NCBI GenBank assembly: GCA_027311945.1 | Contig: DAICXZ010000029.1 | Location: 1-64,000 of the forward strand | Direction of reading: 5' to 3' | DNA: 64,000 nt | Source: Erythrobacter sp. | GTDB taxonomy: Bacteria > Pseudomonadota > Alphaproteobacteria > Sphingomonadales > Sphingomonadaceae | In this document: in pieces, positions 43,793 through 44,245 of the stretch | Layout: the number at the start of each line of letters is the position of its first letter | Numbering within the stretch: the stretch's first letter is position 1 | Program-made: the position numbers and the translations under genes | The notes under the pieces: generated by a model | What the model was told of the DNA's origin: nothing | The model's database searches: none | The model's input: the letters and a program-made list of their open reading frames with translations, nothing else

Positions 43793-43810
43793 CCTCAGGC
43801 GTGCCGGCCA

Positions 43811-43925
43811 AAAAAAAGCCCGGCACGAATGCCGGGCTTTGAAAGTCTTGGGAGAGGATGCCTGAAAGGCCTGTTCCTTATGCGGAGCCGGACCGATTAT
43901 CACAAACGAGCTTACTGCAAGAGGT
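43811..43925 (-). ncRNA. Putative small RNA, copy 1, with terminator
   Basis: On the minus strand a ~115-base unit ends in a strong rho-independent terminator: AAAGCCCGGCA/TGCCGGGCTTT (43815-43840) followed by eight T (43810-43817 on the opposite strand). Its conserved core, shared with copy 2, includes GGCCTTTCAGGCATCCTC, with a C-rich TCCTCTCCC segment that could act as an anti-Shine-Dalgarno seed, then CAAGACTTTC. An upstream GTTGC-N7-GCAAC inverted repeat (43926-43942) may be the promoter/operator. No protein frame is conserved between copies. I do not recognise the RNA family. Confidence 0.55.
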
Positions 43926-44031
43926 GTTGCGTGATTTGCAACTATCTAGCTGCGCCTTATTTGACGTAGCGCATTGCGTGCGCCGGGCGACCATCGCGCG
44001 CAGCGGAATTCCGGCCATCATCATTGGGCAG

Positions 44032-44145
44032 AAAAAAAGCCCGGCGCGAGGCCGGGCTTTGAAAGTCTTGGGAGAGGATGCCTGAAAGGCCCGTTCCTTA
44101 TGCAGTTCCGGGCCCTCCCGCACAAACGCCATAACTGCAAGACGT
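44032..44145 (-). ncRNA. Putative small RNA, copy 2, with terminator
   Basis: Second copy of the unit at 43811, 221 bases upstream on the minus strand. The terminator is AAAGCCCGGC/GCCGGGCTTT (44036-44060) with a different loop but the same stem, followed by seven T. The body is identical to copy 1 over the ~40 bases before the terminator apart from a single change, while the 5' half differs. The GTTGC-N7-GCAAC repeat is at 44146-44162, and a TTGACA lies further upstream at about 44177-44182 on this strand. The changed loop with preserved stem argues for selection on RNA structure. Confidence 0.55.
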
Positions 44146-44245
44146 GTTGCGCAATTTGCAACTATCTAGCTGCGCATTGTCAAAAACCTGTCATTCGCGG
44201 TTCATGTCGCACCACGGCATGTCGCACTGCAACATAAACTTCGCG

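Follow-up and report, generated by a model that had tools for sequence, protein, structure and literature searches.

Background

Small RNAs (sRNAs) of the suhB/MmgR family, also called alpha-r8 and catalogued in Rfam as RF00519, are the closest described systems to the locus reported here. In Sphingopyxis granuli TFA, SuhB acts with Hfq to repress translation of thnR, a gene of the tetralin pathway, and its level rises at high growth rate, according to a review (PMC6563040). Caulobacter crescentus carries several alpha-r8 siblings, SisA-D, which are scattered over the genome; the C-rich core of SisA pairs upstream of start codons and represses mRNAs, and SisA interactions were recovered with Hfq, as the accessible part of that study describes (PMC12559287). 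The rhizobial AbcR1 and AbcR2 offer a further parallel: these alphaproteobacterial sRNAs are homologous, stand in tandem and carry anti-Shine-Dalgarno motifs, and AbcR1 is activated by a LysR-type regulator (PMC8844928, accessible text).

We analysed a 64,000-nt stretch of Erythrobacter sp. DNA (the window) that holds a tandem repeat beside a sulfate-assimilation gene. In the following, the term sphingomonads refers to the wider GTDB family of the source genome, which we take to be Sphingomonadaceae. The two repeat units resemble RF00519 members in scoring above the gathering threshold and in their weak 5' hairpin, C-rich single-stranded core and intrinsic terminator. They depart from the usual RF00519 gene in three respects: the core is AUCCUCUCCC instead of UUUCCUCCCU, the copies stand in tandem (unlike the dispersed Caulobacter sis genes), and the neighbours are cysH and an epimerase gene, whereas an N-formylglutamate amidohydrolase gene is described as the usual neighbour (PMC12559287). 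The likeness to Sphingopyxis SuhB is one of name, 61-nt length and sphingomonad host (PMC6563040, accessible text). The sRNAs of the window are ordinary members of a known family, and the new element is a conserved promoter module that they have in common with a few other genes.

Results

Identity and setting of the repeat

A direct-repeat search of the window returned one repeat family of 153 nt (43806-43958 and 44026-44178), with 80% identity and units 220 bp apart, in agreement with the direct repeats of the preliminary description. On one side lies a PAPS reductase gene (cysH-like, PF01507; 44246-45160, minus strand) on the same strand as the repeats; tblastn matches to it are found beside related copies, and it is the synteny marker of this sRNA class. 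On the other side, a convergent NAD-dependent epimerase-like gene (PF13460/PF01370; 42878-43792, plus strand) occupies the opposite strand. Elsewhere in the window, a DUF2849 gene (PF11011; 47117-47416, minus strand) is located between sulfite/nitrite-reductase-like and tetrapyrrole-methylase genes.

Both units exceeded the RF00519 gathering score of 41 bits in a scan against all of Rfam, copy 1 with 51.4 bits (43803-43877) and copy 2 with 48.1 bits (44023-44097), and the window-scale E-values of 1.2e-7 and 8.2e-7, respectively, rule out chance for the repeat. A third copy on another contig of the genome, also above the gathering score (53.4 bits), lies beside reading frames that we named by eye as 3-oxoacid-CoA-transferase-like and AAA-ATPase-like. 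The family was present in 59/61 genomes of the relatives search (own genome included) and in 132 of the 149 genomes sampled from the taxonomic family. The repeat consists of two tandem genes of this already named sRNA family. The preliminary description was right to predict tandem small-RNA genes on the minus strand; its proposal of a new sRNA gave way when the covariance search hit a named Rfam family, the outcome it had itself named beforehand as refuting.

Architecture of the predicted RNAs

Each unit is laid out on the minus strand, as predicted, in the order operator dyad, second dyad, -35, -10, short RNA and terminator. With starts predicted 7 nt downstream of the -10 element and ends placed at the T run, copy 1 (distal to cysH; 43810-43870) would measure 61 nt, the length published for Sphingopyxis SuhB (PMC6563040, accessible text), and copy 2 (proximal to cysH; 44032-44090) 59 nt. 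The predicted RNA comprises a small 5' hairpin, the single-stranded seed CAUCCUCUCCCA and the terminator. In copy 1, the hairpin GCCU-UUC-AGGC (43860-43870, minus strand) was recovered by folding and is followed by the seed CATCCTCTCCC (43850-43860, minus strand), which is unpaired in the fold and whose first C doubles as the last base of the hairpin. The hairpin (44080-44090) and seed CATCCTCTCCC (44070-44080) of copy 2, on the same strand, were placed by alignment and are identical in sequence to those of copy 1. The terminator scan placed intrinsic terminators at 43815-43840 (copy 1, T run to 43810; also seen in the covariation) and 44036-44060 (copy 2, T run to 44032), both on the minus strand; they have 11 and 10 pairs and T tails, in line with the preliminary description.

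We aligned 36 sphingomonad copies selected from 72 distinct ones. Their consensus fold has a weak 5' hairpin followed by a single-stranded C/U-rich core, as does the fold of copy 1 alone. The GCCU/AGGC pairs of the hairpin are invariant across all 36 copies, so that the hairpin provides no evidence of covariation. The seed CAUCCUCUCC(C/U) is near-invariant. The terminator varies freely in sequence with its pairs mostly preserved, 6 of 9 pairs having double changes that maintain pairing. Selection on RNA structure, which the preliminary description had read from a kept stem and a changed loop in two copies, is borne out by these covarying pairs; the two copies alone show no covariation. Fold z-scores were -5.06 for copy 1, -5.69 for the third copy and -2.74 for copy 2, the last folded 1 nt short; the single fold of copy 2, from an input without the first base, had no 5' hairpin. 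The core in this genome, CAUCCUCUCCC, is a variant of the published 10-mer UUUCCUCCCU, which we found in 20 copies from 20/22 loci of other families of the order.

It is extremely improbable that the repeat is a dispersed non-coding element, or a pair of mere terminators, with no regulatory RNA. Such a reading could draw on the presence of a terminator downstream of cysH on the same strand, and on the fact that the minus-strand sRNA genes are sequence-based predictions. Against it stand the curated RF00519 score, the unlinked third copy in the genome, the conservation of hairpin, seed and promoter while the terminator varies, and the transcripts of relatives described in the accessible text of two reports (PMC6563040, PMC12559287).

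Copy classes and duplication history

A core search with up to 6 mismatches, run on this genome and 36 relatives from its genus, gave 57 matches; after removal of 3 duplicates, 54 copies from 36 of the 37 genomes remained. The copies were assigned to two classes by a cysH or epimerase match, and synteny is therefore not an independent result. Class B, to which the window pair belongs, comprises 20 copies at 15 loci in 15 genomes, with a cysH match at 14 loci and the epimerase alone at one, a contig end; class A comprises 34 copies in 33 genomes, with neither gene in the stretch read. The promoter type agrees with these classes: CACTTG near -35 occurs in 33/34 class A and 0/20 class B copies, and CGTTT in 1/34 and 20/20. 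A weaker third class, absent from the 54-copy set because of the 6-mismatch limit of the core search, is distinct in its upstream region, carries a core of the CUCCUCCCU type and scores 28.6 to 44.1 bits in other genomes of the genus (18 of 20 matches read; those at L077 and L078 resemble chance matches). This genome carries such a gene as its fourth alpha-r8-like RNA (core CUCCUCCCUGAACC; L339:1477-1557, contig C15:144336 of this genome, G000), again with a different upstream region; it scores 31.2 bits, below the gathering score, and many relatives in the genus carry it.

Tandem class B copies occur in four Aurantiacibacter-group genomes, one of which has three copies; three named records with the tandem core are those of Aurantiacibacter xanthus, A. 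suaedae and Erythrobacter sp. UBA1916. Under the NCBI taxonomy, Aurantiacibacter belongs to the Erythrobacteraceae, order Sphingomonadales. A tree built from 19 of the 20 class B copies unites the nine tandem copies in one clade (support 96/95), within which the cysH-nearest copies of the four genomes cluster together (87/97). A single duplication within an Aurantiacibacter-like group, followed by separate promoter histories, is the simplest account.

The preliminary description had regarded the copies as paralogous regulators with different targets and had placed most of the divergence in the 5' half. That divergence is real (53/71 positions identical between box 1 and the RNA), but the diverged half is the promoter upstream of the predicted transcript and not the RNA. 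The shared 40-base body was described correctly: it is identical at 40/40 positions up to the stem, contains TCCTCTCCC and includes the predicted target-pairing segment, whereas the terminator loop differs. That the two genes are functionally different regulators with distinct targets is accordingly highly unlikely, even with diverged upstream halves and a grouping of cysH-side copies that implies separate promoter histories. As the RNA bodies are identical, both copies should act on the same targets, and any difference between them should lie in expression.

A conserved promoter module

In copy 1, box 1 of the putative operator (GTTGC-N7-GCAAC; 43926-43942) is centred at about -64 and conserved in relatives; box 2 (TGC-N7-TCG; 43907-43919), 21 bp downstream, is a weak match to TGC-N7-GCA. 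A predicted -35 element TTTGTGA (43900-43906) and, at 17-nt spacing and conserved position, a predicted -10 element CATAAG (43877-43882) follow. The corresponding elements of copy 2 are box 1 (44146-44162), box 2 (TGC-N7-GCG; 44127-44139), -35 TTTGTGC (44120-44126) and -10 CATAAG (44097-44102), and all elements of both copies are on the minus strand. A consensus scan of the window copies found no standard sigma-70 promoter.

A nearly gap-free alignment of 83 promoters was assembled from the 54 genus copies and 29 promoters of other genera, the latter taken only from best-scoring Rfam loci; it leaves out the second copy of a tandem pair in L159, which is without the promoter words. Box 1 matches TGC-N7-GCA in at least 5/6 letters in 79/83 promoters (class A 32/34, class B 20/20, other genera 27/29). 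Box 2, 21 bp downstream, does so in 66 of the 83 (33/34, 14/20 and 19/29, respectively), and is weaker in class B, the class of the window, with 5 letters in 14/20 and all 6 in 0/20. Shifting the boxes by one base drops the mean match to about 1/6 or less. The -35 element varies among TTGCGA, TTGCAC and TTGTGC and the -10 element between CATATC and CATAAG, with a spacing of 17 nt in the copies counted. Within 130 nt upstream of the 20 UUUCCUCCCU-core copies from other families of the order (20/22 loci), TTGC-N7-GCAA was absent.

The inverted repeat GTTGC-N7-GCAAC, noted earlier in front of the shared body, is indeed present in both copies; it lies outside the predicted RNA and, judged by its conservation in relatives, is a putative upstream operator within a promoter module kept in most sampled sphingomonad suhB genes. 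Caulobacter sisA-D differ in this respect, since the authors saw no conserved upstream motif, as given in the accessible text (PMC12559287).

Candidate regulators

LysR-type proteins usually recognize a T-N11-A dyad near -65 together with a second, activation site between this dyad and the -35 element. The sphingomonad module has TGC-N7-GCA dyads, which are T-N11-A dyads, 21 bp apart, with centres near positions -64 and -43 relative to the predicted start; box 2 of copy 1 is weak. The protein that binds the boxes is most likely a dimeric regulator of the LysR type. T-N11-A motifs are also reported for the LsrB-activated abcR1 promoter, in the accessible text (PMC8844928). AbcR1/AbcR2 are different RNAs, and the published LsrB/VtlR box, GCAT-N3-TG-N3-T, is not the box seen at the window copies. 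We considered VtlR/LsrB as the box-binding protein and rejected it on the misfit of that box. Reading the ORFs at the module sites by eye, we noticed no regulator gene among them; GTTGC-N6-8-GCAAC occurs at 18 places in the genome, and the ORFs around two of these included no regulator evident by eye.

An alternative binder of the dyads is PhaR/AniA, a sensor of PHB granules, which we consider unlikely. PhaR binds the S. meliloti mmgR promoter (PMC12542648, accessible text), the PhaR gene is present in this genome, and TGC-N3-GCA occurs in the -10 region of 11/30 other-genus copies against 0.13 expected. However, the boxes described here are spaced as TGC-N7-GCA, whereas the PhaR site is given as TGC-N3-GCA in the accessible parts of two reports (PMC12542648, PMC6201568). 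The N3 site is nearly gone in the genus (1/34 class A, 1/20 class B), the best such sites in the -10 regions of the window pair deviate by one mismatch and by two, respectively, and so fall short of a PhaR operator, and the phaR promoters of the genus carry, by eye, a different conserved word. From the distribution of TGC-N3-GCA in the other-genus loci L144-L169 relative to the genus, PhaR control of suhB may be older and mostly lost in the genus. As a side observation, most phaR genes of the genus (L109-L138) have in common, as judged by eye, a promoter word resembling ATGCTGCAAGTGCTAAG and preceded by TTGC(C/A)A.

Putative targets

The seed is complementary to GGGAGAGGAUG, in line with the earlier suggestion that a C-rich seed would suit ribosome-binding sites. 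The pattern GGGAGAG-N2-11-ATG has 82 matches in the genome, a figure that includes a few sites twice, and the reversed pattern has 6. Strong enrichment is also seen for a control ribosome-binding word, AGGAGA-N3-10-ATG (187 vs 19), so that the GGGAGAG enrichment is mostly ordinary and Shine-Dalgarno-like.

A Pfam search, which covered the GGGAGAG group alone, assigned a family to 20 of 25 downstream genes and none to 5. The matches include three TonB-receptor plugs, an S15 peptidase, a GDSL lipase, two RPE65-type oxygenases, an MFS transporter, an aldehyde dehydrogenase, an SDR protein and an amidohydrolase. For export signals, the first 30 loci per group were taken in contig order, giving 26 ORFs of at least 60 aa each, from which one duplicate was removed among the targets. 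Signals were called in 12/25 GGGAGAG genes and 5/26 controls (p=0.04) by a crude home-made rule, applied post hoc and with visible misses and false calls; a bias of GGGAGAG genes toward export signals is suggestive only.

The genome has an Hfq gene, whose single reading frame holds two Hfq domains (L317:1471-1965; contig C22:23070-23495 of this genome). A fused double Hfq is probably a known feature of sphingomonads.

The module at other genes and in other genomes

A sequence-only promoter model was trained on a selection of 50 rows that omits, among others, L149, L151, L159, L162 and L166. It finds the module in 25/25 genus genomes searched at E 2.3e-5 or better, many of these matches being its own training rows. 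In the family sample, 43/59 genomes have the module at E <=1e-4 (own genome and one further genus member included), and at E 1e-4 it is missing in the other 16/59; in the 16 genomes taken from the order's other families, the best match reached only E 0.0037.

Five module sites are present in this genome, at the three suhB genes, one UrcA-family gene and one small-peptide locus. Among 20 module regions read in other genera, 6 belong to suhB. Of the remaining 14, four lie in front of UrcA-family genes that pass the NCBIfam cut-off, several are followed by hydrophobic peptides of about 27 residues, and some have no clear gene. Ten UrcA-like proteins were compared with TIGR04433; 7 match it, 6 of them above its cut-off. 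Hydrophobic peptide ORFs of about 26-27 residues (e.g. MRNFAQIMFTTLAAVAISGTLFTSVLA) were seen behind the module at L297:1995-2130, L202:1576-1900, L313 and L316, and in the last two a gyrB-like start, named by eye, lies downstream of the peptide ORF. An open-access search for UrcA together with sphingomonads found no literature, and plain UrcA gave unrelated uses only, among the matches listed; in combination with Caulobacter and uranium, one review was listed.

A possible reading of these sites is a sphingomonad-wide regulon in which one regulator would control most SuhB-type sRNA copies, small exported UrcA-family proteins and the hydrophobic peptides of about 27 residues through a shared promoter (GTTGC-N7-GCAAC, 21 bp, TGC-N7-GCA). 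We regard this proposal as evenly balanced between true and false. Such a regulon is not described in the open-access literature searched.

Discussion

Starting from the established family membership, RNA architecture, terminator covariation, promoter conservation, common clade of the tandem copies and presence of an Hfq gene, we propose that the locus contains tandem SuhB/MmgR genes with their own regulated promoters, whose RNAs repress transport and catabolic genes via GGGAGAG sites, and assign this model as a whole a probability of roughly 0.85. Each copy would be transcribed from its own minus-strand promoter, with initiation controlled by a dimeric regulator, most likely LysR-type, bound at the two dyads near -64 and -43. 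The resulting RNA of about 60 nt would expose the seed between the 5' hairpin and the terminator and, with Hfq, pair with GGGAGAG-type ribosome-binding sites, so that transport and catabolic genes would no longer be translated. Such Hfq-aided blocking is likely, given what is described for SisA in Caulobacter and SuhB in Sphingopyxis, and it would give the SuhB RNAs a role resembling catabolite repression. With the same RNA body in both copies, the duplication would alter dose or timing and not target choice.

Conclusions

In the tandem pair, the promoters have diverged while the RNA body has stayed the same. The putative operator is specific and testable, and it ties SuhB-type sRNA genes found across many sphingomonads to a few small-protein genes. 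In Sphingopyxis, SuhB links carbon status to a catabolic pathway, and the operator offers a way to identify the regulator behind SuhB levels. If the proposed regulon is true, the sRNA would provide post-transcriptional control within a regulon for growth or carbon status, and its multiplication in tandem would represent an adjustment of dose.
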